Source: Anaspis maculata (taxonomy: Eukaryota > Arthropoda > Insecta > Coleoptera > Scraptiidae). Taken from it: a stretch of DNA of 64,000 nucleotides. Both the position numbers and the translations under genes were made by a program. The notes below the pieces were generated by a model that saw only the letters and a program-made list of their open reading frames with translations, had not been told where the DNA came from and made no database searches. The stretch's first letter is position 1. Each line of letters begins with the position of its first letter. This document shows, piece after piece, positions 1,735-46,993 of the stretch. The DNA lies in the NCBI GenBank assembly GCA_949128115.1, contig OX421964.1:2852001-2916000 (forward strand). The letters are read 5' to 3'.

Positions 1735-4700
1735 CAAAAAAGTCATTTATATCTGAAATTATCTCTTATGCAAAAAACTGCCACTCGTAGGTATTCTTCC
1801 TTTTTTTTTTTGGCCAACATTCATATTTTTTGGTCTCTGAAGTTTACAGCGTCGAAATTATGGATTACTCGAAATCAGAAATTCTCACAGGAATGCGCTC
1901 AGAAATTTTGTGAATATTTCGAGAAATCCAACAGGAATCTTCAAAAATCCTTAGAAATTCTCCAAAATACTCGTATCATCCAAAGTTCTCAGGAATCTAT
2001 ACAAAATCTTAATAGAAATCTTCGAAAATTTCCAGATATCCCGCAGAAATCTTGAGAAATGCATAGAAATTTTTGGGAATCCTCACTTGTATTCTAAAAA
2101 CCCTCTGAAATTCCGTAGAAATCTCGCCAAATCCATAGAAATTCTCAGAACATTTTTAGAAATCCCAAATTTCCAGGATCCCGTGAAAATTTTACAAAAC
2201 CTCTAGAAATTCTAACTGAAAGCCTCAGAAATCCTGCAAAAATCCCTGGAAATTCTTGAAAACCTCGTAGAAATCCCTAAAAATTTGTGAAAATCCTTAG
2301 AAATCTCGTCGAAATTCTGAAAATCCCCAGAAATCTTTTAGAAATCTCAAAATTAATCTCGTAGACCCTTCAAAACATCCCTCGAATTTCCGTAGAAATC
2401 TTGAGGAATCTCTCTAATTCTCTTAGATTTTAAAAAATTTTCAGAACTCTAGACGTTTTCCAAACTCTTGTAGAAATAAAATTCCTAGATGTCATATACA
2501 GAGGTGTAGAATTTCTTCTCTATGAATTTTTATGAATCCCTGGAAATCTTGTATAAATCTTCAATTATCTTCAGAAATCTCTCAAATTTTCGTAGATATC
2601 TTGAGAAATCTCCAGAATTTTTTGAAAATCAATACGAATTTTCTTACAAATTTCTAGAAATTTCGGAAAATGTTGTAATAATATCCAGAAATTCATAGAA
2701 ATCCAAAACAAATTTTCAAAAATCCTATATAGAAATTTTTAAAACTCCCTATAAATTCCCAGTATTTCCATAAAAATCTTTGGAAACTCTAAGGGATCTT
2801 TAAGGATCCTTTAGAAATCCCCAAAGTGAACGTGTAGGAACTAAATAAAAAAAAATCTCATCAACTCCTACAAATGTTGAAAACACTAGAAAATCCATAA
2901 AAAAATTTCGGAAATCCCCCCAGAAACTTTGAACGAATCCTTAGGAACCTTTAGATTTCCCGTAAAAATCTTGAGAAATCCCTAGAAATTTCTACAGGAG
3001 TCCTCAAAAATCTCATGAATACTTTTAAAAATGATGAGAAATCTCTAGAAATGCCTAGAAACTCTTCAAAAATCTCATAGAATTCTCTAAAAATCTCTAG
3101 AATTTCATACAAATCCTCATAAGCTCCCAAAAATCCCGTAGGAATTTCGAGAAACCATAAAAAAATTACTGGAAACCTCAACATTATTCGAAACTTCTAC
3201 AAAATCTCGTAGACATATTTGTAAATTCGTAAAAAATCACGCAAAAATGTACACAAATTTTCCATTGATATTTTTCATCAACGTCCATTAATAAAGATTC
3301 ACAGAAATACCGAGTAATTTTTCAAAAATCTCATACGAATCGTCAGTAATCCTTAGAGATCCCACCGAAATCTTCAAAAATTCCTAGAATTATTCTAGGA
3401 ATCTTTAAAAAAATCTCATAGGAATCTTTAGAAAATCCTAGATTCTTGAAAATGAACTCACTTGAAAGTTAACTAACTTGAAATTGGGAATAAAATTGGA
3501 AGTTTGAAGAAAACCCTCAGAAATCTCGTAGAAATCTCTTTAAGCTCTCAAAATTTTGTAGAGATATTCAGAAATCTGTAACGAACCGTGAAAATCTTTA
3601 GTAGAAATCCTAGAGAGTCTTGTAGAAATTTCTGGAACCCCCTAAAACTTCCTGAAATCCTCAGAAATCTAGTAGAAATTTCTAAAGATCTCTGGAAGTT
3701 TTTCAAAAATCAATACAAATTTTAAAAACCGTAGCAATTTCTCACAAATCTTCATTCTGCGCGTAAAAATTTTGAACACAATAGAAATTACATACAGATC
3801 TTCAATCTCAGAACTTCCAACACATCTTCAGAAATCCCTAAAAATTCCTAGTATTCCCTCAAAAAATCTTTGAAAATCCCTAGAAATCTTGTATTATCTT
3901 CAGAAATTCCTAGAAATCCAAAACGCATCTTTAGGAATCCGTAGAGATCCTGCAGTAATGTACAGGGATCCCGAGAAATTCCATGAGGAATTCTCAGAAA
4001 TCTAATCAAAAATCTACAGGGCAACAGTAGATTCCAAGTTTCATGCAAATCGTTCAACTAATAAGAGGCTCTAATTTGATCGCTAAAATGGCGGCGGAAC
4101 TAATTAATTTATCTTGAAAATCAAAAGTTTATACGAGACGAGTAGTCTCCAAGCTTCATGAAAATCCTTCAAGTAAAAGGAGATTTCAAAATGGTGGGCG
4201 AAGTTGATGGCTGGGATCATAAGACCGATCATAAGCATTATTCTTTAAGGTTACTGTTTCAAATATTGGTGGAATATTTGCTGGCGATTCCAACAGGGGG
4301 ATAAGGCACAGACCTGGAGACTTCAACTCGGAAACAAGCCACGAAACCCCACAATTGGCGGAGGCGCCGCTCAAAAGCTCGTCGGAAATTGCGGAGAAAC
4401 TACTGTATCTTTTAGAGCTTTCAATAGGATCTTTGGCTTTTTTGTCGCTCTGTCTGGCCGTCTGTAATTTTGTACGTATGTTGCACATTATCTTGTCAAA
4501 CGCGCATTTTACTCTGGAACCGTTCAAGCAATCTCGACCAAATTTTGTATCCGCGTTGCATCTGTGCCATACAGACGGAAAAAGCTTCAACAACTTTTCG
4601 CTGTGATCTGACGTCAAGCAAATCACTTGAAAATTACAGCTGTTTTTTCTCCGGGACTAAACTTTCCCTTTCAGGTCTTTGTGGGTCCATTTTTCAATTG

Positions 4701-5035
4701 ACTGAATTTATTGCTTAGATTGGCATCTGCCAAAAATGGCAAGCTGTCAAATTCGAAACTTGAACACTGCATAGTTCGAGAAGTACTGAATTATTTCAAC
4801 TACGTTTGGTACACGGCAAGGTTTGTACCGAACCATGGAGCATGATGAAAAGCTCAACTTCAAGCCAGGACTTTGAGGAAAAAATATTCCCCACTAGTCA
4901 CATTCAAAAATAATAAACATTCTTTGTGGGTAAATTGCAGAGTGTGATCACGCTTTTCTTTATAAATAAAATACATACCTACCTGCCTCAAATGAATAAA
5001 TACCATTCTGTTGTATTTTTCAGTTATTGCGGTCA
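1735..5035 (+). repeat. Long repeat unit, copy A (about 3.3 kb)
   Basis: This unit recurs in inverted orientation at 8062-12430 and partly in direct orientation at 7740-8061 and 12430-14150. Its first 300 bp match 7740-8061 directly. Its body (about 1860-4060) is a degenerate array built on AGAAATC with variants such as CTCGTAGAAATCCC. Its last kilobase (4070-5035) is more complex and matches 8062-9060 in reverse complement. The copies end at the same points, near 5035 and 8062, which marks a real unit boundary. No protein is recognisable. The 146-codon minus frame at 4186-4626 is decayed in the other copy and looks non-coding. The unit may be an unclassified transposon carrying an internal satellite. 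Confidence 0.7.
1860..4060. repeat. Degenerate AGAAATC array in copy A
   Basis: Short, highly diverged tandem motifs around TAGAAATC, CTCGTAGAAATC and AAAATCC fill over 2 kb with no exact period. The open frames in this interval are low-complexity shadows of the array. Confidence 0.75.
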
Positions 5036-5088
5036 ATCTAGGTGATAACTCAATACCTACACAAGGATTCAGATTATCCTGTCAAGGA
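5036..5088. other. Short unique spacer
   Basis: About 50 bases between the end of repeat copy A and the next hairpin element. Nothing is recognised in them. Confidence 0.4.
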
Positions 5089-5090
5089 TA

Positions 5091-5663
5091 ACGTATGGTC
5101 CGAAAGTTTTGGGATTTTTTTTAAAAGCTAATAACTTTTTTTGAATAGTTTCAATTTTGTAACTTGATATTGCAAAAACTAGCATCATCTTCAACAATAC
5201 GAAATTCATATTCAACATATTGAAGATGGGCCATTATTTTTGATGGCTCTCAGTTTTCTTCTGCCATGTTCGATCATTCTCTGGACAACAGCAGGATTAA
5301 TTTCTCTGAGCTCCTGCCTTCCAATGTACCGCAAGCTCGACCAATATAAGATTTTTGGTAAGTATTGAGCAGGATTGTATACGACAAGGAAAGGGAAGCT
5401 GCAAATGAAGAACAATTACGGCGTCGCATTCTTCAATAACATTAGAGAATTTCGCATTTGAGAAATTGATACAAAAAGTTATGGAACATGGCAGAAGAAA
5501 ATTGAGATCCATCGAAGATAATGGTTCATTATCAATATGTTGAACATGAATTTGATATTCTTATATATGATGTTAATTTTTGCAATATCAAGTTAAAAAA
5601 TAGAGACTATTCAGAAAAAGTTATTAGCTTTGAACAATTTCCCAAAACTTTCGGACCATACGT
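5091..5663. mobile_element. 573-bp foldback element with TA target site
   Basis: The left end TA-ACGTATGGTCCGAAAG and the right end CTTTCGGACCATACGT-TA are perfect inverted repeats. The pairing continues imperfectly inward to about 5310 and 5455, leaving a loop of roughly 145 bp. TA lies directly outside both ends (5089-5090 and 5664-5665), as for a TA-inserting cut-and-paste element. No transposase is encoded, so this is a non-autonomous element of unknown family. The small open frames inside are arm shadows. Confidence 0.8.
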
Positions 5664-18109: not shown

Positions 18110-18917
18110 TGCCATCACTGGTGTTGCCATCAAACATCAGTGAAATGCGATCTTTTTTTCAGCACTGTTCCATAGACTAGGTTAAATCGTATCCGTGATC
18201 ATTTCATTATCATGTCACCACCCACCGTCACCTGTTATGGTTTCTGTGGTGAACATGATGGTGTCTATGTGCAGTAGTGTGAACTGTGCACGTCTCACAT
18301 GGCTTTTCTATGTGGTGACATTACGTTTAACTTGCGGGAGTTGGAAGATTATTATTTATAATAACAATATTGTCACGTATTTCGCGTACAGTTTCGACTA
18401 TAATTGAGACGATCGTTTCAAAACACACTGTCTATTACTGCGTACTACAATAAATACACGCCAACACTTATTCACTTGGGAAAATCGCAGATTACTAGTC
18501 GCTCTTTCTATCCGCTTTCTACCACTTCACATTCAATACTGAATCTGTGGGCGATCTATGGTGCTCATTTATACCTCCCACTAGCCTTCTCGGATGTTCC
18601 ATGGGTCCTCCAGCGAATTCCACAGTGACTTGGCGTTATGGTTTATTGGCGACTCCCGAGTAATCTTACACCTTTCGCGTGCAATCTCAACGTGCTGTGA
18701 AGCCGGCACCTTCGCCAAAATGGACAGATGTGTCTCACTCGCATGTTCAAGTGTCCACGTATTTCAATCGTCAAGCCACATCGCGTATATTCTGGAATTG
18801 TTCAGAGCTCCGCACTTGTACACTGCGACCTAATGGGAAGAGTCTAGAAAGATCGCGTGTTTTCCAAAATCGCCGCTCGTAACAATATTAACCCTGGGTT
18901 GCATCAACGCTCAATTA
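18110..18917. other. No recognised gene
   Basis: Less AT-rich than its surroundings, with several overlapping short open frames but no recognisable motif or splice pattern. It could hold an unrecognised exon. Confidence 0.35.
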
Positions 18918-18919
18918 TA

Positions 18920-19999
18920 CAGGCTGTCCTGAAATTAATGCAACAAAATTTACAGGGAGATAGAAAATTGAAAAATAAGGGGACTTCCTTGATGAAAGTA
19001 CCCTCGCAAACGTAATAACGGAGATACAGGCCTTTGAAGTTGTTTTTTGAAAACAGTTTTTTTGACATTACTTTTGAACCGTTTAACCGATTCCATTCAA
19101 ATCTCTACCAAAAGTTACTGAAATAGGTCTTTATTGAACAATTATAACGAATTTTATCAATCATTTTCAGGGGCGAAGATGATAGGGGATACCTTCCCCC
19201 CTTTCACCCTATTTTTCGCTCCTGGATATTTTTGGAGATGGTTTGAATTTTTTGAATTCTACGTTCAACTCAGAGGAATAAGTTACTTTTGCAAAATTTT
19301 GATTAGAGGCTTCGTTTTGAAGATATTTGGGATTGAAACATTGGAAAACATCTCAAAACCGCCAGTTTCCAGGGTCCAAATTTTTTTTCTGAAAAACTTC
19401 ATGTTTTTCAGAAAAAATGATGGTTTATCAACCTAAAACACCTGGAATTCTTATTTCACTTGAGAAATCTTGAGTTTTCTTGATTTTGAAGGCCTTTGAA
19501 AATGGTGTTTTCGATACGTTTTCCGAAGTTTCAAACCCAAATATCTCAAAAACGAAGCCTTTAATTAGGCCTTTAATCAAAATTTTGCAAGCGTAATTTT
19601 TTTCTCCAAATTGAACGTAGAATTCAAAAATTAAAACCATTTCCAAAAATATTAGGGGGGGGGGTGTGGAAAATGGGGGAAAAACATACAACAACACCCA
19701 TACATCCCTATTGTAAAATAGGGAAGGTACAACCTATTATCTCCGCCCCTAAAAAGGTTTGATGAGATCCGTTATTTTTGTTGAATAGAGACCTATTTTA
19801 GAAAACTTTGGTTGAAATTTTAATAAAATCGGTTAAACGGTTCAAAAGTAATGTCAAAAAAACTGTCTCTAAAAAACAACTTTGAAGGCTTGTATCTCCG
19901 TTATGACGATTGCGAGGGTGTTTTTACCAAGGAAGTCCCCTTATTTTTCAATTTTCTACCTCCCTGTAAATTTTGTTGCATCAATTTCGGGACACCCTG
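18920..19999. mobile_element. Foldback element P1 (1.08 kb)
   Basis: An end-to-end imperfect palindrome centred near 19440. The left arm runs CAGGCTGTCCTGAAATT, then TGCAACAAAATTTACAGGGA, then CGTAATAACGGAGATACAGG, and the right arm gives the same text in reverse complement, ending ATTTCGGGACACCCTG. TA precedes the left end and the TA at 20000-20001 follows the right. The same family recurs at 21046-22069. No transposase is encoded. Confidence 0.8.
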
Positions 20000-20001
20000 T
20001 A

Positions 20002-21043
20002 CAGGGTGGTCCAGGTTATAGTAGCAATAATTCACCATTCGATGGTCGATCAAAAACTAGGTCGACATGCATAATTTAATTTTTCTCCAAAACGCTTCCT
20101 AAGAGAGATAGAGCCCTTCAAAGTTCAGTTTTTAAAATCATCTTTTTGCAATAACTCTCAAGTCATCAAAGCGATTTTTACTAAATTTGGCACAAATACA
20201 ATCAAATAAATACCCATCACTTGACGTAGATAACTTTTGTCACAATTGTCCAGTGGCGTAGATACCGGGGGATTGTTCAACTTCTCCCACCCCATTTCCT
20301 ACGCCACTGGATATTTTCGAAAAATTATACTTTTTTTAAATTCCTTGTTTAATTTAGAAAAAAAAGTTACTCTTGTAAAATTTTGATTAGAGGCTTCATT
20401 CCCGAGATATTTATTTGGGTTTGAAACTTTGGAAAACACCTCGATATCGCGACTTTCAAAGGCCTAAAAACTAAAATCCAAGAAAACTCATGATTCCTCA
20501 ACTGGAATGAGTTTTCTAGGTCGTTTGAGCTGATTTGCTGCTATTTTTTGCTAAGAAACGAGGCGTTTTCAGAGAAAAAACAATTTGGGCTCTGGAAAGT
20601 GGCGATTTCGAGATGTTTTTAAAAATTTAAAACCCAAATATCTCGAAAATCAAGCCTCTTATCAAAATTTCACAGGAGTAACTTTTTTTCTAAATTGAAC
20701 AAGAAATTCAAAAAAAGTATAGTTTTCCAAAAATATCCAGTAGCGTAGAAAATGGGATGGGGAAAGTTGAACAATCTCCCGTATCTACGCCACCGGACAA
20801 TTATGACAAAAGTTATCTACGTCAAGTGATTAGTATCTATTTTATGAGTATTTGTATCAAATTTGGTCGAAATCGCTTTGATGACCTGAGAGTTATTGCA
20901 AAAATAAGATTTTTAAAACTGAACTTTGAAGGGCTGTATCTCTCTTAGGAAGCGTTTTGGAAAAAAAAATGTATCGATGTCGACCTAGTTTTTGATGAAC
21001 AATCGATTAGTGAATTATTGTCACTATAACCTGGACCACCCTG
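20002..21043. mobile_element. Foldback element P2 (1.04 kb)
   Basis: A palindrome centred near 20530, starting CAGGGTGGTCCAGGTTATAG and ending with its complement. It shares a single TA with P1 on the left and with P3 on the right. Each arm holds a smaller inverted pair, CCAGTGGCGTAGATA and TACGCCACTGG, around a G/C-rich core. The arms differ from P1 and P3, so this is another family with similar ends. No transposase is encoded. Confidence 0.8.
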
Positions 21044-21045
21044 TA

Positions 21046-22069
21046 CAGGGTATCCCGAAATTTATGCAACAAAATTTACAGGGAGGTAGACAATCGAAAA
21101 ATAAGGGGACATCCTCAATGAAAATACTCTCGCAAACGTAATAACGGAGATACAGGCCTTCAAAGTTGGTTTCTCAAAACAGTTTTTTTTGCATAACTTC
21201 TGAACCGTTCAGCCGATTTTATTCAAATTTGAACCAAAGTTTACTAAAATAGGTCTCTATCGAACAATGATAACGCATTCCATCAAACATTTTCAGGGGC
21301 GAAGATAATAAGGGGTACCTTTCCTCTTTCTCCCCTATTTTTCACCCCCTTGAATATTTTTGAAAATTGTTGCAATTTTTGAATTGTACGTTCAATTTAG
21401 AGAAAAAAGTTACTGTTGCAAAATTTTGATTGAAGGCTTCATTTTTGAGATATTTGGGTTTGAAACTGCGGAGAACATCTCGAAAACACCACTTTCAAGA
21501 CCTTAAAAATTATAATTCAAGAAAACTTAAGATTCCTCAACTGAAATAAGTTTCCTAGGTGTTTCAAGTTGATCAACTACCATTTTTGCAAAGAAACATG
21601 AAGCTTTTCAGAAAAAAAAGGGCCCTGAAAAGTTGCTATTTTGAGATGTTCTCCGAAGTTTCAAACTCAAATATCTCAAAAATGGAGCCTCAATCGAAAT
21701 TTTGCAGGAGTAACTTTTTTCTCTAAATTGAACGTAGGATTCAAAAATTTCGAACCATTTCCAAAAATATCCAGGAGGGTGGAAAATAGGGGGAAGAGAA
21801 GGAAGATACCCCCAATTATCTTCGCCCCTAAAAATGTTTGATAAAATGCGTTATCACCGTTCAATATTTTAGTAACCTTTGATCTAAATTTGAATGAAAT
21901 CGGTCAAACGGTTCAAAAGTTATTAAAAAAAACTGTTTTCAAAAAACAACTTTGAAGGCCCGTATCTCCGTTATTACATTTGCGAGGGTATTTTTTATCA
22001 GAAGAGTCGCCTTATTTTTCAATTTTCTATCTCCCTGTGAATTTTGGTGCATTAATTTCGGGACACCTG
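21046..22069. mobile_element. Foldback element P3 (1.02 kb)
   Basis: Same family as P1. It starts CAGGGTATCCCGAAATTTATG and ends with decayed GGGACACCTG, and the centre lies near 21560. Arms include CGTAATAACGGAGATACAGG and its complement. It shares the TA at 21044-21045 with P2. Confidence 0.8.
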
Positions 22070-23339
22070 TGTAATACGATATTAGTAAAATTTCTTTTTG
22101 TCAGTACTCCTTGGTAGATAATAAAAATTCTGGTTTCACAAAAATGAATGATCCAATGATTGATTAGCTGGAAATTTTAGGCATTTCCCATGGTCAACCT
22201 ACTAGGATTGGCCAGATTTAAACCCATTCAATCTCGTATAAGCGTGAATTGCGTCTTATTTTTCTGGTGCAACCCAGAGTAAGGTTTTTATTTGGCCATT
22301 AATAAACCTTCGGTGTTCACATTTTACTTTCCCGACCTCCCCATCAACATTGGAAGGGGAAGTATTGTAATCGTGCAGAGTGCAGATAAAATGTTTTGAG
22401 ATTTCGCCGGATAATATCCATTTTGAGGTCTCCCAAGACGATCAAGACCATTTTCAGAGCGATGTCTGTCTATGTGTCTGTCTGTCTGTGATCATCCACG
22501 ATAACTGCCGAACTGTTGTTTCGATTGGCTTGAAATGCGAACATGGTTTTCCTGTGGAATTAGCCCATTACTTTTTGGCTGTCATCTGTCAACCAGAAGT
22601 GAACGTATCAACAAATGTCACAAGCTGTATCTCACGGAACTTGACTTGCAGTATGTCATTTGAAAGCCCTTAGTAAAACTGTGTTCAGACCAGTTGGAAG
22701 TATTGCCCTATCTGTCATCTGTCAAGTAATAACAAAATGTCAAAGCTCAAAACTTCACCATTCAAAATTATTCAAAATCGATCCGATGGATTGGAGCTAA
22801 ATTTGGCAGGAAGCAACACAACAAAAGAGTCAAACTAGGTCTGAAGTTTGAACTTCCACCATTTTCTAGTCGGGTGTTATGAATTTCAAAAATTTCTCTT
22901 AGCCGTTGCCACCCGAGAGGGCCCCTCGTCCGTATTTTGACCAGGACGAGGCGCTTTTGATGCAGAGTTCCACTCAAAAATTATTCCTGCTCGGGGATCT
23001 ACTTTTTTCGAAAAATTCCAACTGACATCGAAAGTAGATCAAAATGAGCGTTGTACAGATCCATTCTCGGTATCGAAACGGTTCGACGGTAATTTTTTCA
23101 AAATGAAATTAGCACACTCCGTGAATTTGAAAAAAACTGCAATGCAAATTTTGACGTGCGGTGAGCCCCACAAAATATTTATTTCAGGTGCAGACATGCT
23201 GGAAATGGAAGTTGGTGAAGAGACTAAAATAATTGTTGGAGGAAGAATTTTTGAAATAGGACCCACAGTTTCGAGTTTTTCTTTCTGGAAAACCTCTATT
23301 TTCCAACTTTTCATCCCGTGAACAGATTTTCACCATTTT
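22070..23339. other. No recognised gene; one repeat-like phrase
   Basis: Contains a TGTCTGTCTGTCTG-type run followed by TGATCATCCACGATAACTGCC near 22460-22515. Phrases of this kind are common in dispersed non-coding repeats of arthropods, and a related reversed phrase occurs near 4440-4560. No frame can be named. Confidence 0.4.
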
Positions 23340-28240: not shown

Positions 28241-30074
28241 TTAATCAAAAACTCGCCTGACATCCGCCGCACTGCAGTTGAAAATGTCGAACTTCTCCTG
28301 GAACCTATTGTATGTCAGAGCAAGGCGGTTCACTGGAGAATTGAAGTAAAAGAGCTTTTGTGTGGGCCTCACATAAAAAACATCACTTCGCCTCAGGCCC
28401 TGTCTTGGAACATTTAGGGAGATCCTTGAAAGAACACTGGGGGAGGTTACCGCACCCGAAACAAGCCTATGCAGGAAAAGAAGGTAGCCAACCGTTCTAC
28501 GGCTTTCCAAGGACCGATGACCAAATCTGGCCAGCAACGACTGCTGCGGGAAACCAACACAAGGGTAAACTCCATACTCCATCGACCCTGAGGGCCAGCA
28601 GCTTCAGGAAACGCCGCTGCACACCCTCCAGAAAGGACACATATTTCTCGTGGTAGGGGCACCAGATGACGGATGCATACTCCAGCCGTGGCAAAACCAA
28701 GGACGAAAAGAGACGCTGCAATGTCTCGATGTTGGAAAAGTCCCCGGAGTTCCGTGTCACGAAACCCAGTGTAGTGTAGGCTGCCCTGTGCACGTAACCA
28801 ATGTGCTCTGAGAAAGAAAGCTTTGGGTCGGAGTACACGCCAAGGTCTTTGATGACACTGGGTCTGGCCAGAATGTGATCGCCAATCTTGTATGGGAACT
28901 CCAGGGGTCCAGAGGACCTCGAAAAGAACATGACCATGCACTTCGTCACGTTCAAGTCAAGACCGTTCGCAGCGCACCATCCCACCAATGCATCGATGTC
29001 CTCCTGAAGGCGAGAGCAGTCCTCAGAAGAAATCACAGGCGAAAAGATCTTCAGATCGTCAGCATAGAGGAGGAACGAGCTCCTGAGGCTCAGCCCAATG
29101 TCATTTATGAAAATGATGAAAAGTAGGGGACCCAGCACAGATCCCTGCGGGACCCCCGACACAACCTCGAAGCTCTCGGAACTGTGACCCGAAACCCTCA
29201 CAAGCTGCCTTCGACCGACCAGATAGGACCTGAACAGTCTGACCAGATCGGGGGAAAACCCCAGATTCTCCAACTTCCTCAAGAGTATGTCGTGGCTTAT
29301 ACGATCAAAAGCCTTTGAAAAATCGGTGTAGATGACATCGGCCTGCTTACGCTCGCTCATACAATCAGATATAAATTGCGTTTTCTCCATCAAGTTCGTG
29401 ACTGTTGACTTTCCCTTTATAAAACCGTGCTGCTCGCTAACTATTTTCTGTTCAACAAACCCCGAGATAACCCTATGCAAGCAAATCTCGAACACCTTGC
29501 TGACGTTGCTCAAGATAGCGATCGGTCTATAGTTCTCAGCGCAGTTCCTAGGGCCGTTCTTGTGAATAGGGCACAACCTAGAGCTTTTCCATGATTTGGG
29601 GAAGGTGGAGGAAGCAAGAGCTCTGTTGAAAATCAATTGCAGGGGGCGGGCAAGGGCAGAACGACAGTCCCTTAACAGATATGATGGAACGAGGTCCGGC
29701 CCGACAGCATTACCAACCTTCAGCTTGACCAAGGCTGCCACGACGTCACTCTCGCTGAAAGTGGTGAGGCAAAGGTAGTCAGTCGACCCCAGGTTGCCAC
29801 AGGAGTAAGCCGGATTGTTACTGCTCGCATAGACACCTGAGAAATAACGTGCGAAGCAGTTGGCAACATCACGGGGATTACTGTTAGATTCACCTTGGTG
29901 CAAAACCTCACTGGGTATGCCCGACCGACCCTTCTTGCTCGCAATATGTTGCCAGAACTTCCTTGGGTCACCCCTAATATTACCCTCGATCCGGGACAAG
30001 TATCTGGCGTGAGCAACTCTAATGTCACGCTTGAGAGCCGATTTTTTGCAACCTTTGCGCCAAAATCTCACCAA
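28241..30074 (-). pseudogene. LINE reverse transcriptase, truncated and frameshifted
   Basis: The first frame of 525 codons (30074 to 28497) covers the linker and the reverse transcriptase domain. Residues 1-50 resemble the linker upstream of RT in jockey/CR1 proteins, with FWQHIASKKGR. RT motifs follow in order: NYRPIAILSN (about 181), the catalytic YTDFSKAFD (D251), GVPQGSVLGP (about 307) and the YADD box (337-340, both catalytic aspartates intact), then the post-RT segment ending RRFLKLL. At about 28575 a 7-bp tandem duplication (GGAGTAT/GGAGTTT) shifts the frame. Reading continues in the next frame (28582 to 28241) for the C-terminal 110 residues or so. It makes cDNA from its own RNA in the family. 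The apurinic-type endonuclease is missing. The exact clade is uncertain. Confidence 0.85.
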
Positions 30075-31870: not shown

Positions 31871-32395
31871 GTTGCGGTAGGGAGAGCAAAGTCTCAGTGA
31901 GTTTTTTATTTTGTCACATGTTTGAGAACCTTTTTCTTTGAGCCTAACTCAGTGGTTTCTTTGACTGGGTTCTTCCACATGAGTGCTCTTTTTCGAATCC
32001 GTCATTCTCCATTTTCTTTGACTTGACAGTTTGACATATTTTGTTGTGTTGTTTTCAATTGTTTTATTGTTTTGCCCATTTTATCCATTTTGTACCTTTT
32101 GTTCATTCTGTCAGTCACATGTTAGGTGTTTTGAGAAAAGAACCATAAAAGACTAATTTTGCACTTTATTTGTTTTGAGTAAATGTAATTTTCTGTGCAA
32201 TGAGCGTGCTTCATTGAAGTCGACCTTGAAGTCCACCTTCTTCCCCCTCGGGTCGTTCACCTCATGAACAAAAGCGGATCAAAGGGTTAAGATGCGAACA
32301 AAAACGGGCACAACGTAGAATTCCGACGATCAGAGGCCAATCACGTGAAATGTCAATGGGGGGTGCCGGGGGCGTACCATTACAAGGTATTTGAA
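31871..32395. other. No recognised gene
   Basis: AT-rich sequence grading into a G/C-richer segment (32220-32395) just before the ACAATTCGTCGC repeat. Nothing is recognised. Confidence 0.4.
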
Positions 32396-32649
32396 GTTTT
32401 CCGTGACCGGACAATTCGTCGCGTGGACAATTCATCGCGGACAAATTGTCGCGAACAGTTCGTCGCACAGACAATTCGTCGCAATTTTGTTTCCCTTTGC
32501 CTTGGTTTTACTAACCCGTTTTGTGTCTTCTCCTGCTTTTAGAGTTCTAATGAGCCCCTTATACCCTACTGTATTATTTAAAACTCTTTTGGGCACCTTT
32601 GTTTTTTCAATGTCTTTGAACCTCTAGTGAGTCCCCTTGCACTACTCTG

Positions 32650-33466
32650 CGCACTTCTACACCTTTTCCAGTTGTAGTTCAGAAAATATCAATTGTATTC
32701 TAGATATCGTCAATTGAATTTCAGAATTTATCAAGTGTAGTTCAGAAAGCGTCAATTGTATTTCGGATTAGTCACTTGTAGTTCAGAAGGCGTCAATTGT
32801 ATTTCAGATTTATCAAATGTAGTTCAGAAAACTTGAACTGTACATCAGATTATGTCAATTGTATTTCAGAAAGCGTCAATTGAAGTTCAGAAGGCGTCAA
32901 TTGAAGTTCAGAAGGCGTCAATTGTAGTTCAGAAGACATCAGTTGCATCTCTGATTAGTAAAATGTAGTTCAGAAAGTATCAATTTTATTCGGACTCCTG
33001 CAAATTGGGGCACTTTTGCACAGCCACAGCTTCGAACTCTTGATCTTCTTGTATGATGAACTGCAGATATTCGGCACATCTTCTGTGTAACAGATGCCTG
33101 CGGGGGTGTTAATCGCACGACCGGCTTCCGCAGCACTGAAGAACGACAAATGCTACAATTATCTTGGAGCTGCATTGATTGATAAATTATACATATAAAT
33201 TATTTTCTGAACTACAAATGACATGTTCTGAAATACAAATCACGCTTTCTGATAAACAAATGATGCTTTCTCAAATTCAATTTATTAATCTGAAATACAA
33301 TTGACTGTTTCTGAAATACATTTGACTAATCTGAAATAAAATTGATACTTTCTGAACTACATTTTACTAATCTGAAATGCAATTGACGTCTTCTGAACTA
33401 CAATTGACGATATCTGAAATACAACTGATATTTTCTGAACTACAACTGGAAAAGGTGTAGTAGTGC
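32650..33466. repeat. Foldback built from 20-30 bp minisatellite units
   Basis: The left side repeats GTAGTTCAGAAAGCGTCAATT-like units in plus orientation (32660-32990). The right side repeats the complement (33190-33450). The outermost text CTACACCTTTTCCAGTTGTA at 32650 pairs with its complement ending at about 33466. A non-repeated loop of about 200 bp (32990-33185) separates them. The whole can fold into one long hairpin. Confidence 0.8.
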
Positions 33467-34164
33467 ACCGAGCTCCCGAAACTCTAATTCGGAACCCTAT
33501 CGAGTCCCTTGTGTCCGCAAGTGTTGTTTGGAGAGCTAATTAGCCCTTCAGGTTTTTTCATGACTACCAGAATCCCAGCAAGCCCTCTGTTGCGTTCTTG
33601 TGCTATCCAGACCTCCATTGGGCCTCCGTGTGTCTTTAGTGCAGTTTAAAGCCTTTGGCGAGCCCCTTGCATTTCTCCGTGACTTTCGTAGCACTAAGAA
33701 CCTTTATGTTTCCATATCATATCCGGAGCCCTATCCTGGAGTTTTCTTATATTTTTTCTGAGCTCTGCTGAGTCCCCTTACATTTTTCCGTGACTTTCAG
33801 AGCACTAATAAGCCCCTTGTGCCTTCATGCGGTGTTCGGAGCCCTGTCGGGCTCCTTACGTCCTTAAGTGTGATTCTGAGCCCTAATGACCCTTCTCATA
33901 TTTTTCATAGCTTTCAGAATTCCAGAAATCCCCATTTTGCAAACTTGTGTTATCAAGAGCCCCACTGGACTCCAGTATGATTTGAACCCCTGCTATGCTC
34001 CCTTGTATTTCCTGTGACTTTCGGAGCAGCAAGCAGCGTTGTGCCATCATGTCATACTCGGAGCCCTACCGGGCCCCTTTGTTTCTTAAAATGTAATCAA
34101 AGCTCTGATGAGCCCCAGAGCTGATAGGCTTTCAGAGAAAGTACGTACCAATAAGCCTATTCTA

Positions 34165-35589
34165 TACTGCCTTCCAAAAAAAGTGCAACACCATGAAGCC
34201 GTGGATCAATTTTATTCAAATTTTCGCAACAAAACATGTGTTTCAACAATAGAAACAAACAATTAGATTCTGGAAATCGTAATACAAGGAACTTCAGAAA
34301 AAATTAATAATGTGTCGCTCCTCCACGATTTGCCCGACACTCATTAACCCTACGAGGCATGCTTTCAATCAAGTGGTCGATTGCCGCTTGTGACAAGCCA
34401 TCCCATGCCTCTTGCAAGGCCATACGGAGATCTTCCAAGTTGTTGGGAGGATGGCGTAATTGCCCCACCTTTCTTCCCATCATATCCCACACGTGTTCGA
34501 TGGGCGACAAATCAGGAGAGCGCAAGCAGGCCATGGAAGCACGTCAACGTGTGCATCTTCCAGGAACTGCATTGAAGCTCTTGCCGTATGAGGACGTGCA
34601 TTGTCTTGCTGGAAAATAGGGTTGTTGAGCCCCTGAAGGTATGGAAGGCAAACGGGTTCCAGCACACTCGCGATGTAAGATGCAGCTGTCATAGTGCCCT
34701 CAATGAACACCAATGGTGACCTGCTTCCATGGCATATTGCTCCCCAAACCATCAATCCGGGTGTACGGGCAGTGTGTCGCTCGGCAAAAAATTCGGGATT
34801 ATGCCGTTCCCCACGAAAGCGCCTCACCCTCCCCCGGCCGTCATGAGCCCAAAGACAAAAGCGGGACTCGTCACTGAAGACCACCCGATGCCATTCTTGG
34901 ACCCAGTTTCTGCGCTCATTGCACCACTCCAATCTTCTGGCCCGGTGAACAGGAGTGAGGGGAAGGGTTAACAGCGGACGATAAGAACTTAGCCCAAAAG
35001 ACCTAATTCTTCTATAGACCGTGCTCATTGAGATTGGGCGTCCTATAGCTGCAACCCACTCGTTTCCGACTGCTCGGGTTGTCGTAAATCGGTCTCTTAC
35101 AGCCGCTACTCGAAGACGTTGATTTTGACGTACCGTGGAGGCTCTACGACGACCAGATCCATTCCGTCGCCGATAATTGGCCTCCTCGTTCCATCTCCGC
35201 CACCATCTCATCACAGTCGAAGCATTGCAACCAACAAGTCTCGCAATTCTTCGATACGAAATCCCCTCATTTTTTAAGCCAATAATCTGTCCCTTCTGGA
35301 ACTCGGTTAAATGATGGTACTGCCGAGGTTGACGGGCTCTTGGCATTTCAGGACTCTTGGGGCTCACTATTGAAACTTATTGCAAAAAATGTGGTTTGTA
35401 ACAACCAGGAAAAACGAAAAACAATTTCTTGTGTTTTACGGTTACCAAGGGGAAAAACAAAACAACTACAGCGCCTAGATATCCAGAATGTTAATCATTT
35501 GTTAGTGTAGATGAAATACTTGTTTTGTGAAAATTTGATCAAAATCAGCCAACGGCATCGAGGTGTTGCACTTTTTTTGGAAGGCAGTA
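34165..35589 (-). mobile_element. Tc1/mariner-family transposon, nearly intact
   Basis: The terminal inverted repeats start TACTGCCTTCC and are identical for about 28 bp, then similar for roughly 45 more. TA sits directly outside both ends (34163-34164 and 35590-35591), the usual Tc1/mariner target duplication. The element is about 1.4 kb with one transposase gene on the minus strand, the standard layout. It lies inside the degenerate GAGCCCC array. Identical ends and a single frameshift suggest recent arrival. Confidence 0.93.
34304..35367 (-). pseudogene. Tc1-like transposase, DD34E, one frameshift
   Basis: The first frame runs from the ATG at 35367 for 295 codons. An N-terminal helix-turn-helix at about residues 20-58 (FQKGQIIGLKNEGISYRRIA) recognises the transposon ends in this family. 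A second DNA-binding helix set follows a GSGRRR linker. The catalytic domain has the first aspartate in VVFSDESRF (D166) and the second in FQQDNARPH (D255). Around 34515-34525 a net +2 (or -1) change in the stretch coding PWPAR-SPDL moves reading to the next frame (34534 to 34304). That frame holds the catalytic glutamate in LSPIEHVWD (codon 34496-34498). Counting across the break gives 34 residues between D255 and the glutamate, as in Tc1 enzymes. The protein excises and inserts the element at TA. This copy would be inactive unless the frameshift is a sequencing error. Confidence 0.92.
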
Positions 35590-37780
35590 TATTATACAGA
35601 TCTCCAGTAGGCCCCCTTGTGTGTTTAACATAGATTGAAGCTCTGTTGGGCCCCCTTTCATTTTTCCGAAAATTTCGGAGCATTAGTGAACCCCTTGTGC
35701 CTTCATGTGATGTTCAGCCTCCTATCGGGCCCCCTTGCGTCCTCAAGTGCCGCTATGTGTTTCATAGCTTTCAGAATTCCATCAAGCCCTCTTCCATTAT
35801 TTTCTGTTATCCAGAACTTCATTGGGCCCCCTTCTTGTGTCTTCAATGTAATTTGCTGCTGCAATGTGAAGACCTGCTGGGCCCCCTTGAATTTTCCGTT
35901 ACTTTTGGAGCACTAAGCACCCTTGTGCAGTATTGTCATTCGGAACTCTATTGGTCGGAGCATTAGTAAGTCTCTTGTGTCTTCATAATAAAATATTTCG
36001 ACCCTGGTTGCCCCCCCCCCTCCCCTGTGTCTGCAAGTGGAGTTCCAATTAGCCCCGTCATGTTTTTTTCATCGCTTTCAGGGTATCAGTAAGCTCAGAG
36101 GTAAGCCCTTTTTGCCTTCTTTTGTTAAACAGAACTCCCGCGGGCTCCATTGTGTGGTCTATAACATTTGAAATCATGCTGAGTCCCCTAGCATTTCTCC
36201 GTGGGTGATGGAGCTCCATCAGGCCCCCCTTGTGCCCTAATCTATCGTTTGGACCCCTGATGAGCCTCCTTATGCTTTTCATAGCTTTCAGAATTCCAGT
36301 ACGCCCCCTTGTTGCCCTAGTTGCCCTATGAGGGCTCCCTTGTCTCTTCATTGTCTTTTAAGCGCTGCTGAGCCCCATAGCATTCTCCCGTGGCTTACGG
36401 AGCTCTATGGGGCCCCCTTGTGTCCTAATGTATCGTTTGAAGCCCTGATGAGCCCCTCTATTTTTTGCGTAGCTTTCAAAATCTCAGTGAGCCTCCTTGT
36501 GCCTTTTTGCGTTGTTAGAGGCCCTAGTGGCCTTCCAAGAGCCCCCTTGTTTCTTCAATGTCTTTTGAAGCCCCGCTGAGCCTCATAGCATTTTTCCGTG
36601 GCTTACGGAGCTCCATCGAGCCCCCTTGTTTCCTCATCTATCGTTTGGAGCCCTTATAGCCCCCTTATTTCTTCCGTAGCTTCAGAATCCCCGTGAGCCC
36701 CCTTGTGCCTTCTTGCGTTGTTGAGGACCCTAGTGACCCCCCAGGAGCCCTCTTGTTTCTTCAACGTCTTTTGAAGCCCTGCTGAGCCCCATAGAATTTT
36801 TCCATGGCTCCATCCGGCCCCTTATTCCTACCGTAGCTTTGAGAATATCAGTGAGTCCCCTTGTTGTCCTAGTTGCCCTCTAGGGTCCTTCCTATTTCAT
36901 CAACGTCTTTTGAAGCCCTGCTGAGCCCCCTAGCATTTTTCCGTAGCCAACGGAGTTCTATCGGGTTCCTTAGTGCCATCATGTATCGTTTGGGACCTTG
37001 ATGAGCCCCCTTTTCTGTAGCCTTCAGAATTCCAGTGAGCCCTCTTGTGCCTTTTTGCGCTGTTTGAGGCCCTAGTGATCCTTTGTGAGCCCCCATTGTT
37101 TCTTTAACGTCTTTTGAGACCCCGCGGAGCTCCCTCACTTTTTTCTTTGTCTTTTGGACCATTAGTGAGTTCCTTGTGCTTCCATGTGATATTCGGAGCC
37201 CTATCGGCACCCTCTGTATCCGAAAGGGTAGTTTGGAGCCCCAATTAGCTCCCAGATGAATTAAAGCCAGCGATTTGGATTCAAGCAAACTTCATTGGAC
37301 CCCCTTGTTTCTTCAACGTGTTTTGAAGCCCCGCTGAGCCTCACATTTTCCTTGACTTTTGGTGCATAAATAGGCACCTTGTGTTTTCATGTGATGTTCG
37401 GAGCCCTATCGAGCCTCCTTGTGTCCTCAAGTGTTGTTTAGGGCCCTAATTAGCCCACTTATGTTTTTTCTTGACTCTCAGAGTACTACAGTGAGCCCCC
37501 TCTTGCCTTGTTTTATTATAGAGAGCTCCATTAGGCCCCCTTATGTCCTCTATCTTTGAAGCCCTGCTAAGCCCTTTTTTTTTCGTGGCTTTGGAGCTCT
37601 ATCGGGCTCCCTTTTGTCCTCATGTGTAGTTTGGAGCCCTGATGAGCCCCTATGTGTCAATTGTCCGGCCACGCATCGAGAAGTGTCGTTCGTTTTGCGA
37701 CGAATTGTCCGTGCGACGAATTGTCCGCGACGAATTGCCCGCGACAAATTGTCCGTGTGACGAATTGTCTTAGAACGGAA

Positions 37781-38749
37781 ATTTTCTAGGTGGAGGAAAC
37801 CGTCAGCATCACGAAATTCCAGTTTTTCTTGTTTAATATCGCATTGCACTTGAAACACGTGTCCAGGAATGCTGTTATAACTCACAGTTTCTCAAGGCGT
37901 TCTTACAAAGTGCTGCCTGATGAACAATCGCGCCAAAAAATAACGTTCTCCATAGCTGGCCGCGGATTATTCTAATTGGATTGGTCACGTAACTATCACG
38001 TCCAGGGATTCTCGAGGACACCTGTCCCTGATGCCGAAAAAAAAAGTTTGAGATACGCAAAGTTGACGATCAACTTGGAAATTTCAATTTCTGTGAACTT
38101 TTTTCAATTTCTGGATATTTATCGTTAGATAAAACGTGAAAACGGCGTCTAAAAACGGCGTTTAGCCGATCTGACCGCGGTCTATTTCATTTATTGTTGC
38201 CCCCTTCAGACCGTACAATGCTGCTCAAGTACTACAAAGTTTATAAACTTGATGTTCGCACCAAAGTTTGAATCGAGAATTTTCACGTATCTTGATGACA
38301 TAACTATCAAGTCTAGTACTTTCGAAGAACAATTATTGTCTTTTCTGTTTTCCCAAGTAAGAATTCGTTTTGAGTCGCAAATTTGACAACCAATTGTAAC
38401 GTTCATTTTTTGATCTAAGACCACTCGTGGTCATTGGCTTAATTTAGGTCCCTGTATTCAGTTTTCCTTCATCTAAGTAATTTCTTTCTTTCATTCAAAA
38501 TTCCGCTTTGCCAAATTATAATACCGTAAATTATTACTGGAGGTACCTGATAGGAGTTTATCGGACCGAGCGAAAAAAGCAGCTCGTCGAAGAAATGCGC
38601 GATAAAGTCTGAGGCGCTAATAAAAAGTCTGGTAGATGGTTCAAGTTTGAAAATTTCGACGCTCGAAGAGTCTTCTGGAACTCATTGCACCTGATATATT
38701 CGCATTTTGTGATTACTCCAGCTGGAGGATTTGGAATTATCAGTAGTAA
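37781..38749. other. No recognised gene
   Basis: AT-rich unique sequence after the array border. Short frames on both strands have no recognisable motif. Confidence 0.4.
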
Positions 38750-42448: not shown

Positions 42449-43665
42449 CACGGTGCGGCAAAATCAAAAATAGCAAAACAAATTGTTCATCAAATCTGAC
42501 ATCATAGCTTGATTCCTCATTGTTTTTTATGATAAAAAAAAGCTTCTTCAAAATAATTCATCGGTGAATTTTAATTTTAGCACGATTCGAAAAAAAATCG
42601 ATTATGTGGCCTCAACATTTTACAATTTTATTTCAATTTTGAAAAACTTCGAACTACTTCAACTGACAACTTCATATTTGATATGAAGGATCATAAATGT
42701 GAACTGTTATAAAAACAAACGGAAGCTTCAAGTCTTCTGGCGAAGTCTGGATGCGATCCATTTACTTTATATCTTTCCCACACTATTGAAAAGTCGGAGT
42801 GAACTGCTTCTGAAGCCTGTTCGCTGTATCTACCTTTAAAATCAAGGCATCAGTTATTTTTGTAATTATCAATATTATTACACCTACCCAGACCACAGTT
42901 TGTCGTTTCGCAGAAATCTTTAATATGGTAAAAAAATAGCATGAATTTTGGATGTAGGGTTGATTTCCAAATCAAGAAATTCCGTTCGAAATTGAAGAAT
43001 CAAGTCCTTATATTTGCTGTGTAGGTCGCGTCCAAAACAAGTTGGTACAGTTGAAGATTTTTTTTATGGCTGGGTTGCTTGCACTTTCGACCCACAACAA
43101 AAAATTCATTGTCTCCAAAACTTCTGTCTCCTCCTCGTTCATGTAGCCTATTCTTCATCACTCTGCATCAAGTACAGGTGTGTAATGGACTGTGTGACAT
43201 TTTCCCCATAAGGATATTTTGAAAGTCTCAAATCAGTTGCAATTGTGAATTTTGAGAAAAAGCGCTCAGTTTCAAGGAGGTTCCACAGCTTCAATACATT
43301 AGAATAAGTCTTTTTAACTTTGGGAGCAATTGCTAGAATGAATATTTTTATGACGCCGGAGTCTTTCAGTTTTCTTGTGCGAAGCTCTTCCGATCTATTT
43401 TCACATTTGGTTGGAATCTCATTTGCTTGTACACTCAAACAAATTTTCAAGAAACCCCCACCACCATCCAAGCCAACTTAAAAGAGAACATCTTCATGTG
43501 ATGTCAACTGTCGTTCTTCCAATATGTATTTTACAAAAAAATCGAGGTCTTCACAAAATATTTGCTTTGCAGGTCGCGTCCAAAACAACTTAGTAACAAT
43601 TTTAGAAATGTCTTAATGAAATTCACATACGAAATCCTTACTAAAGTAGGTTCACTTGTACCGTG
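42449..43665 (-). mobile_element. RAG1-like transposon, internally deleted inverted copy
   Basis: Similar to the plus copy in reverse complement but only about 1.2 kb long. Sequences matching 44,560-45,560 and about 46,105-46,410 of the plus copy are missing. At its 3' end homology with the plus copy stops right after GCCGCACCGTG (complement begins CACGGTG, at 42449). At the 5' end the motif is CACGGTACAAGTGAACC (complement of 43649-43665). ATTCA precedes the left end and ATTCT follows the right, a possible 5-bp duplication with one mismatch. The pairing of 5' blocks extends about 17 bp beyond the heptamer-like motif, so the 5' boundary is uncertain. Confidence 0.6.
42690..43600 (-). pseudogene. 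RAG1-like transposase remnant, minus copy
   Basis: The longest frame (43471 to 43148) keeps the DGGGGFLK motif with the first acidic residue (codon 43466-43468) and ATDLRL with the second (43232-43234), 78 residues apart. It reads without interruption through QANEIPTKCENRSEELRT, the point where the plus copy is frameshifted. Immediately upstream AAA has become TAA, a nonsense change. The CTWC zinc motif is lost to a TGA and a shift. About 300 bp including the central part is deleted near 43045. The exon after the intron (about 42850-42700) is still recognisable, as is the intron itself. It is a dead derivative that could at most be moved by an intact relative. Confidence 0.8.
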
Positions 43666-43669
43666 ATTC

Positions 43670-44520
43670 TAGTCGGCTGTGAGATTTTGTTTCTAAGTTT
43701 CCAAATGTGAAATATAGAAAATCCCCAAGACTTTGCAGTTGGCTGCTCTGGCCGGACCAGTTTTGAAACACATTTTTTGCGTATTTCCTTTGCAGATGGC
43801 CGGAACATTTTTGCGGGACGTGATGTCTGACGCTTTTTTCCATTTTATTGGAAAATGTAACAATTTTTTGACCTGTTTTTAATTTTTGCCAACGAACAAA
43901 TAAATCAAGAGAGCCTTGACATTTGACAGTTGTGAAAAATATTCCTAACCTCTTGAAGCCGGTTCAACTTTCGGTGCTTCAAATTGAAGTGTATACAATG
44001 CCCTTCGTCCTAAAAGGGGGCCCCATGCAATCATCGACCCTTTCGCCTCTTCCAGTCAAAAATACAAGCCAAACCCTGAAGAATTATGGGCGACACAAGG
44101 ATCGCCGTGCAGTCTGTCATTGGCAAAAGAATTTACGTGTAAAAAGTAAATTAAACCAAATTTCAAAAAACCCAGCCGCTCAAAGTTTCGTATTGGACCG
44201 AAATTGATGTTAGTACCTTCAATTTGCAATTTGCTTTCGTTTTGGGGCTTTCCGGGACGAGTTTTTGTCGACCCTGAGTGGGCCGCCGTCAAGATGACTT
44301 AGATTTGCGGCCGCCCCGTGCTATTTTGGTGTCTACATGATGGTAACACAGCTCTGCGTCCCCCTAGTCGCACTTCCACATATGACCAGGTCAGTTTTCC
44401 AAGATTTTAATATCAATTTGATAAGAAATATAACTTCACTTCCAGAGAAGTCAGTTTCACACCAGGTGAAAAGGCGGCAAGCCTACAATGCTAAAGTAGA
44501 AAATTTGCCCAGCCAACTAG
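43670..44520. other. Spacer between the two RAG1-like copies
   Basis: About 850 bp separates the head-to-head copies. Small frames at 43652-43843 (minus) and 44337-44537 (plus) both end in S-x-LES-x-YK just at the heptamer-like motifs. The match covers only about 35 bp and may reflect transposon-end sequence rather than coding. Confidence 0.4.
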
Positions 44521-44685
44521 AGTCACAGTACAAGTGAACCTACTATATCAGCTCAGCAGTCTACTTGTTAGTTATATCAAGAAGGCTCCTACTGACTTAG
44601 TAGAAAACAAAAAATGATGAGTTGTCAGAACTGACATCTCTAGTTATCAACACGTTTTCGTTAGTGCTTCTCGCAACGTTCAAAA

Positions 44686-46749
44686 ATGAAATCTTATGAA
44701 CAATGTCGTGCAAAAGTGTGTCTACTTTGTTTTGGTAAAACCAAAGACATGAGAAGAATCAGTTCTAGACAACAAATGATTGTCTCCCAACATTTTCTAA
44801 CCGGAAAATCATACGATTTCAGTCGATTGCCATGCGTTTTGTGTTCGACGTGTCGACTAGTGGTGCTGGATCATGAACGCGGAAATTGTGTAAGAAAAAT
44901 TGATCTGTTTGATCATTCAAAATTAAGATTGCCGCCAGTTGTATCAACTAGAAATTCGTCAGAATCCATTTGCGACTGTAAAATTTGTGAATGTGCTAGA
45001 TCGACCATAAATAGTAGTTTTCCTCGAAAGAAAGTTGGACGACCACTCAAGGAGAATTTGATTAGCAAAAAAGAGTCCTTCAAAATTTGTGGCAAATGCT
45101 TCATTCGAGTTGCCAAGGGAAAACGGCACAATTGCTCAAAGATACAGTGCACCAAAAATCTTATAGAACTGGCATCAAATGGTAGTAGTTCTCCCAAATT
45201 GAAGGAGAAACTCGCTGCAGCAATAATAATGAAGCAAAAAAACTGTGTTGAGAAGGAAAATCCCTCGGCTTCATCATTTGAAACTGATCATATTGTTCTC
45301 CAGACTAACACTAAACAAAAATTGAAATTATCATTAAAGCCTACCAATAATATGTCTGTATCGGTTGGAGACATCACAGCAATCCAAACAAAACTCAACT
45401 TGAGCACAAATCAAACTCTAAGCTTAGCAACAAGTCTGAGGAAGTCAGTATCAGTAGAGAATAATTTGCGGAAAAAATTAGAATTAAGGAAGCACAGCAT
45501 GGACGACTTCTTCGATAAAACCGAAATGGACTTTGAGGATAAAGATCTGGATTCAAAGGTGAAGCAAGCAGTAATATTTTGTAGAGACCTTGATTCTTTT
45601 GTGGAACACATATTGGAGGAACGACAATTGACATCAGATGAAGATATTCTCTTCAAAGTTGGCCTGGATGGTGGTGGGGGTTTCTTTAAAATTTGTTCAA
45701 GTGTACAAGCAAATGAGATCTCAACCTACCAAATGTGAAAATATCAGAAGAGCTTCGCACAAAAAAACTGAAAGACTCCGGCGTCAAAAAAATATTCATC
45801 CTAGCAATTGCTCCCAAAGTTAAAGAGACTTATTCTGATGTACTGAAGCTGTGGAACCTCCTTGAAATTGAGCGCATACTCTCAAAATTCACCATTGCAA
45901 CTGATTTAAAACTCGCAAATATTCTTATGGGTATAATGTCGCACAGCTCATTGCACCCCTGTACTTGGTGCAAAGTAATAAAAAATAGGCTACATGAACG
46001 AGGAGAAGACAGTAGTTTCGAAGACATCAAAATGAGTTTTTCGTTGTGGGTTAAAAATGGAAGCAAACCTAGCCATGCAAAAAAATTCTTAAATTGTAAC
46101 AATGAGCCTATAATACAAAGCAATCAACCAATCATACAAATTTTGCCGCCCCCTGAGTTGCACCTATTACTAGGAGCTGTAAGTACAATTTACAACCATT
46201 TAATGAAAAAAGTTCCTACTTTTTGTGAGAAGTGGGCAAAATTCTGTAATGTTGAAAGAGAGGCAATGCATGGAGGTTCATTCAATGGGAACTCTTGCAA
46301 TGAGCTATTATCTAAAATCGATTACTTATACTCTATATTGCCTCTGGAGTTCCTGAAATACGCGAAATGCCTCAAGACATTTGCAGAATTAGTACCGACA
46401 TGTTTTGGACGCGACCTACACAGCAGATATAAGGACTTGATTCTTCAATTTCGAACGGAATTTCTTGATTTGGAAATCAACCCAACACCCAAAATTCATG
46501 CTATTTTTTACCATATTGAAGATTTCTGCGAAACGGCAAATTGTGGTCTGGGTAAGTGTAACAATAGTGATAATAACAATAATAATTGATTGCCTTAATT
46601 TTGAAGGTAGATACAGCGAACAGGCTTCAGAAGCAGTTCACTCCGACTTTTCAACAGTGTGGGAAAGATATAAAGTCAATGGATCGCACCCAGACTTCGC
46701 CAGAGCACTCGAAGCTTCCGTTTGTTTTTATAACAATTCACATTTATGA
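44686..46749 (+). CDS. RAG1-like DDE transposase with one intron and one frameshift
   Basis: The start is the ATG at 44686, with an in-frame TAG 24 bases upstream. Frame 1 gives 350 codons. Cysteine/histidine motifs lie at C12/C15, C50/C53/C56, C96/C98/C101/C103, C135/C138 and H148/C150/C155. A GRPL motif is at about 118, and GLDGGGGFFK holds the first acidic residue D328. Near 45728-45756 a 4-base gain and a 2-base loss relative to the inverted copy shift the frame. Frame 2 (open from 45717) carries ATDLKL, CTWC 19 residues after that aspartate, FNGNSCNELL, and H-x4-H in KIHAIFYH. Exon 2 (46607-46749) gives RYSEQASEAVHSDF and ends NSHL. As I recall, RAG1 has D600, D708, C727/C730, H937/H942 and E962 in this order with the same 19- and 5-residue steps. 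The enzyme would cut and join transposon ends in the nucleus. This copy is broken unless the shift is a sequencing error. Confidence 0.8.
46552..46606 (+). other. 55-bp intron of the RAG1-like gene
   Basis: The donor is G|GTAAGT and the acceptor TTGAAG|G. Joining keeps the frame, giving L-G-R-Y-S-E-Q. The inverted copy has the same intron with donor GTAGGT (complement of about 42843-42898). The intron falls just before the proposed catalytic glutamate. Confidence 0.8.
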
Positions 46750-46993
46750 TCCCTAATATCAAATATGAAGTTGTCAATTGAAGTAGTTCGAAGTTTTTCA
46801 AAATTGAAATAAAGTTGTGAAATGTTGATGCCACATAATCGAATTTTTTTTTCAAATGTTGATGAAATAAAAATTCACCGTTTAATTATTTTGAAAAAGC
46901 TTTTTTCCATCATAAAAAACAATGAGGAATCAAGCTATAATGTTGGATTTGATGGACAATTTTTTCTGCTATTTTTGATTTTGCCGAACCGTG

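Follow-up and report, generated by a model that had tools for sequence, protein, structure and literature searches.

A probable decayed Chapaev-type transposon with a RAG1-like transposase core in the beetle Anaspis maculata

Layout of the locus

A 64,000-nucleotide stretch of Anaspis maculata contig OX421964.1 (positions 2,852,001 to 2,916,000 of the forward strand; hereafter the window) contains two damaged copies of a DNA element that encodes a transposase related to RAG1, an enzyme of antibody-gene assembly. The more complete of the two, copy 1, is very probably a decayed Chapaev-type cut-and-paste DNA transposon, as judged by matches of its relatives to the Pfam family DUF1280, by its sequence motifs and ends, and by the target-site duplications of two relatives. 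The features of both copies are as follows.

44686–46749, plus strand: transposase gene of copy 1, 668 residues when read through a frame break and an intron
44686–45735, plus strand: first frame of copy 1, from the N-terminal zinc-binding domain to the first catalytic Asp
45667–45669, plus strand: first catalytic Asp, in GLDGGGG
45720–45742, plus strand: frame break, where the reading frame apparently shifts twice
45735–46551, plus strand: second frame of copy 1, with the second catalytic Asp, CTWC, PPPELH, FNGNSCNELL and the zinc histidines
45903–45905, plus strand: second catalytic Asp, in ATDLKL
45960–45971, plus strand: zinc cysteines of CTWC
46497–46499 and 46512–46514, plus strand: zinc histidines H604 and H609
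46552–46606, plus strand: 55-nt intron (GTAAGT...AG), predicted from sequence alone
46607–46749, plus strand: last exon, with the catalytic Glu and the stop codon
46630–46632, plus strand: catalytic Glu, the final E of SEQASE
46955–46993, plus strand: 3' terminal inverted repeat of copy 1, ...ATTTTGCCGAACCGTG; from the end inward, CACGGTTCGGCAAAAT...
42449–43897 (approximate), minus strand: copy 2, rearranged and internally deleted, head to head with copy 1
42449–42487, plus strand: 3' terminal inverted repeat of copy 2, CACGGTGCGGCAAAATCAAAAATAGCA...
43860–43897, minus strand: possible decayed 5' terminal inverted repeat of copy 2

The first frame of copy 1 carries an N-terminal zinc-binding domain (C12, C15, C53, C56, C96, C98 and C101), a second zinc motif of C2HC type (C135, C138, H148 and C150) and a stretch that matches the dimerisation and DNA-binding helices of RAG1; PPPELH, the LH motif of the second frame, matches RAG1 H795. 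The first-pass annotation had placed a RAG1-like catalytic core at 45660–46749. Its motifs do lie there, although the interval is not a single open frame, the frame changing near 45.72–45.74 kb, and the gene extends further than was supposed, with its start at 44686 and a damaged second copy beside it on the minus strand. The stretch that is interrupted in copy 1 is a single frame in the neighbouring copy (open reading frame 43148–43471, minus strand). Because of this break copy 1 is a pseudogene; with its frame broken and no intact 5' end found it is dead, and it cannot make the full protein. Removal of the predicted intron yields GLG-RYSEQASE, in agreement with the family consensus GLGxxSEQA, and only with this removal does SEQASE fall where the annotation had placed it.

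Conserved residues of the transposase core

In the read-through of copy 1, the aspartates of GLDGGGG and ATDLKL are residues 328 and 406, CTWC occupies 425–428, the paired histidines are 604 and 609, and SEQASE spans 625–630. The two aspartates are thus 78 residues apart, CTWC begins 19 residues after the second, the histidines are separated by 5, and the two glutamates follow the second histidine by 17 and 21. All of the RAG1-like motifs quoted in the annotation are present on the plus strand where it had put them, and the spacings it gave (including SEQASE at 16–21 residues past the second histidine) hold in the read-through.

A search with residues 290–668 retrieved 159 proteins (E≤0.01), 120 of them listed; 83 of these went into a profile, which found 59 proteins at E≤0.001, including 36 that the first listing lacked. 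Three listed homologues carry organism names, Brassicogethes aeneus, Pseudolycoriella hygida and Eretmocerus hayati, all presumably insects. Conservation was counted over an alignment of 156 homologues, for each column only over sequences with a letter there. The catalytic acids are nearly invariant (first Asp 151/153, second Asp 154/154, the two Glu 125/129 and 124/126), as are the zinc-site cysteines (154/155 and 154/154), the paired histidines (130/132 and 126/129) and the histidine of the LH motif (144/145); the Asn of FNGNSC is retained in 127 of 137. Given this conservation, the agreement of motifs at the level of sequence exceeds chance.

Relation to RAG1

When the 83-sequence profile is aligned to mouse RAG1, hhalign places D422 of homologue P0001 on D708, C441 and C444 on C727 and C730, H510 on H795, H621 and H626 on H937 and H942, and E647 on E962, with the NGN motif also in register. 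A profile of 45 RAG1 proteins (from 120 listed among 241 found) gives the same register. It is the last E of SEQASE that pairs with E962, 21 residues past the second histidine here versus 20 in RAG1, and the distance between the aspartates is 78 here versus 108 in vertebrate RAG1 and amphioxus RAG1L. The profile-profile score with RAG1 (31.3) exceeds those of all 40 column-shuffled profiles (maximum 24.1) and of the reversed profile (17.1). The counterpart of D600 is identified by fold and strand position only: two profile alignments start near the second Asp, and a third, longer one is poor upstream of it.

The solved structures closest to the predicted model are HzTransib and RAG1. The claim of a RAG1/Transib-type catalytic core borne by a transposon is upheld by the predicted fold, the residue register and the conserved residues, and the resemblance to RAG1 in fold and catalytic residues, as modelled, is real.

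Element ends and relatives in the same genome

Two stretches of copy 2, of 604 and 540 nt, are respectively 91.6% and 85.2% identical to copy 1. Similarity between them stops at the same 3' end, which reads inward CACGGT(T/G)CGGCAAAATCAAAAATAGCA, and both termini of a relative, L010, carry a close version of this end. The two copies lie within 4.5 kb (42449–46993), and only copy 1 has the N-terminal half. Copy 2 is scrambled, a stretch matching residues 207–232 of the second frame preceding one that matches residues 297–347 of the first. Its 5' limit is set solely by a terminus scan of the window, comprising 1276 half-overlapping 200-nt windows on both strands with two queries. There 43860–43897 is the best match besides the two 3' ends, leading by a small margin (38 versus 32 and 36 versus 34 for the two queries), and its score was reached by none of 200 shuffles.

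The genome (757.8 Mb in 50 contigs) contains at least 25 matched pieces at E≤0.001, on seven contigs. Six loci were examined for element ends, and two are complete at both. L010 is 3435 bp long with a perfect target-site duplication CAAA, and L011 is 2794 bp long with terminal repeats identical at 97 of 100 positions and a perfect duplication AATC; their protein identities to the window element are 41–50% and about 37%, respectively. CACGG ends were chosen for both because both window copies end there. At L012–L015 no pair of ends combined 12 of 16 matching end positions with a duplication of at least 4 bp; L013 and L015 each have one near match to the terminus. The L011 element lies, turned, at 2227–5020 of its locus. 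At L010 a second inverted repeat, 1188–1647 and 5081–5526 (38/40 identical at 1188 and 5526), gives the impression that the element is nested in a further palindromic repeat. L011 has near-identical repeats and a perfect duplication yet shares only about 37% protein identity with the window element: the genome harbours several lineages of the family.

Assignment to lineage

Motifs and fold do not by themselves settle the lineage, because EnSpm, Mirage, Chapaev and Transib all possess C(2)C and H(3-4)H motifs (a passage of PMC12730594). According to an excerpt of PMC4079192, Chapaev is marked by CAC...GTG ends, by duplications of 3 to 4 bp and by the motifs C(2)C, LH and H(4)H. The element has a DDE triad (D328, D406 and E630) with CTWC as C(2)C, PPELH as LH and HAIFYH as H(4)H; CAC...GTG lies at the 3' ends of both window copies and at both ends of L010 and L011; and these two relatives carry 4-bp duplications. 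DUF1280, which part of PMC3985635 equates with Chapaev transposases and groups with RAG1, finds a match at E≤1 in 16 of 56 relatives, the strongest being P0041 (6.4e-7; 29.6 bits against a curated cut-off of 25). The Chapaev placement is drawn from these DUF1280 matches, the hallmarks and the relatives' duplications; the N-terminal zinc domain is a further likeness. Chapaev3 shares the motifs, and two-exon transposases also occur there, but its duplication is a 3-bp TWA in the text excerpted from PMC4079192, versus the 4-bp CAAA and AATC here. The Dada superfamily was dropped, since CTWC is unlike the DxxH or CxxH that follows the second D in Dada, which also has N-terminal CCCC and C-terminal CCHC fingers (a passage of PMC3706591).

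Several observations weigh against the Chapaev assignment. The window copy is broken, and in this it differs from a Chapaev element: its 5' end was not found (best scores reached by 61 and 27 of 200 shuffles for the two queries), nor was a target-site duplication. Its own three pieces match no Pfam family at E≤10. The duplications come from two of six loci, both of them relatives; at L011 the script ranked first a pair that lies further inside the long repeat, with palindromic ATAT, and the additional inverted repeat of L010 lies outside the chosen ends. The profile comparison with RAG1, which the first-pass annotation had proposed as a check, aligned D708, E962 and the C2/H2 site but with a probability of only 2–8% (P 0.004–0.03). 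The family profile did not retrieve RAG1 from the PDB sequences, where the only matches were two tropomyosin sequences (best E 0.37), and the window pieces gave nothing significant there (best E 0.29 and 1.5). Structures of CACTA, Mirage or Chapaev proteins are absent from the structural matches listed, so that fold alone cannot choose among CACTA, Mirage, Chapaev and Transib relatives. Confidence in the Chapaev reading is held back by the basis of the duplications, which come from two relatives and depend on which candidate ends are chosen.

A true Transib or RAG1L/ProtoRAG element would have the same core with 5-bp duplications, which passages of PMC4411706 and PMC9435367 give for Transib and RAGL, and RAG1L would be accompanied by a RAG2L partner gene. 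HzTransib and RAG1 as nearest structures, together with the conserved C2/H2 zinc site and H795 counterpart of a RAG1-type core, speak for this origin. It is nonetheless very improbable: the duplications of L010 and L011 are 4 bp, the DUF1280 matches favour Chapaev, and Pfam RAG1 (PF12940) is matched neither in four family members scanned nor among the 25 of 39 families listed for 56 members. Canonical Transib transposases, moreover, have the core as sole domain (a passage of PMC4411706), whereas the window family has N-terminal zinc domains. As to RAG1L, a second long frame is absent from either strand of L010, L011 and copy 1, in which plus-strand frames above 81 residues are the transposase only and the longest opposite-strand frames are 108, 110 and 124 residues, respectively; this frame test would miss a gene of many short exons, and kelch and PHD families were not searched.

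Membership in another branch of the CACTA/Mirage/Chapaev/Transib group that has the core by descent, for instance an EnSpm/CACTA-like one, is very improbable. Most of the group has CA...TG ends and the motifs C(2)C and H(3-4)H (PMC12730594, as excerpted), but DUF1280, 4-bp duplications and CAC...GTG ends together fit Chapaev best, and no EnSpm/CACTA Pfam family was seen among the 25 of 39 families listed for the 56 relatives. That the locus is instead a host gene, domesticated and with a core like that of RAG1, is scarcely credible; the strong conservation of catalytic residues over the 156 homologues, many on short contigs (about 1–5 kb), would suit such a gene, but two damaged adjacent copies share an end, matched pieces are spread over seven contigs, and two relatives have terminal inverted repeats and target-site duplications.

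The Chapaev assignment bears out the earlier suggestion of a lineage other than classical Transib, the relatives' duplications being 4 bp versus 5 bp. The lineage is not new, however, as Chapaev, a family of animal transposons in the CMC/CMCT group, has already been described, and part of PMC4411706 treats it as a clade within the Transib superfamily.

The N-terminal zinc domain

The N-terminal domain has a conserved Cys pattern in the 156-homologue alignment. A zinc domain termed Chapa is common to the N-termini of Chapaev and RAG1 in the passage taken from PMC4411706. Comparison of the N-terminal profile with the RAG1 N-terminus gave P 0.006–0.036, versus P 0.15 for a reversed control, with the score reached by one of 40 column-shuffles. 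No RING family is among the Pfam matches listed for the 56 relatives or the four members scanned. The domain resembles the insect ZAD domain. No ZAD match was found among PDB sequences with either P0027 or a 19-sequence N-terminal profile, Foldseek gave no match for the N-terminal half at E≤0.001, and no literature linking ZAD with Chapaev or RAG1 was found among the matches listed; excerpts of PMC4999995, the single listed paper to contain both RAG1 and zf-AD, mention them in separate passages, and those of PMC10547256 cover ZAD without transposases. A ZAD link, if true, would bear on the origin of the N-terminal domain of a major class of insect transcription factors.

Other features of the window

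Further repeats and frames lie elsewhere in the window, in which Rfam and tRNA scans found nothing.

18914–22075: 3.2-kb nested palindrome of about 1-kb units in direct and inverted order, about 80% self-complementary over its full length
28497–30074, minus strand: 525-residue frame, which we take to be a non-LTR retrotransposon reverse transcriptase
32393–37786: larger structure with 92-nt inverted ends (32393–32484 and 37695–37786, 80% complementary), inside which lie 42-nt and 206-nt tandem arrays together with the frame that follows
34480–35367, minus strand: 295-residue frame, presumably a Tc1/mariner transposase, between inverted repeats 34158–34234 and 35520–35596 (81% complementary)

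A terminus-like match at 35122–35137 was dismissed as chance, as it falls inside this presumed Tc1/mariner frame.

Proposed mechanism and implications

The intact element would encode a transposase of about 668 residues that joins a RAG1/HzTransib-like core to an N-terminal zinc domain and a further, small zinc motif. The core is predicted to adopt an RNase H fold carrying the triad D328, D406 and E630, with a C2/H2 zinc site that falls after the second Asp and before the Glu, and with the LH-motif histidine in the place of RAG1 H795. By analogy with RAG1 and HzTransib, from which the DNA binding, dimer and cleavage chemistry of the Chapaev-type enzyme are inferred, a transposase dimer would bind the CAC...GTG terminal inverted repeats, and the DDE triad would cleave at the repeat ends by a nick followed by hairpin formation or strand transfer. 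Joining of the excised element to a target staggered by 4 bp would then give rise to the 4-bp duplications.

The fossil copy itself is of little functional interest. The predicted structure backs the idea of a RAG1/Transib-like core in Chapaev-type transposases, complete with counterparts of the C2/H2 site and H795, in agreement with the DUF1280–RAG1 grouping given in part of PMC3985635, to which it adds a test at the level of fold.
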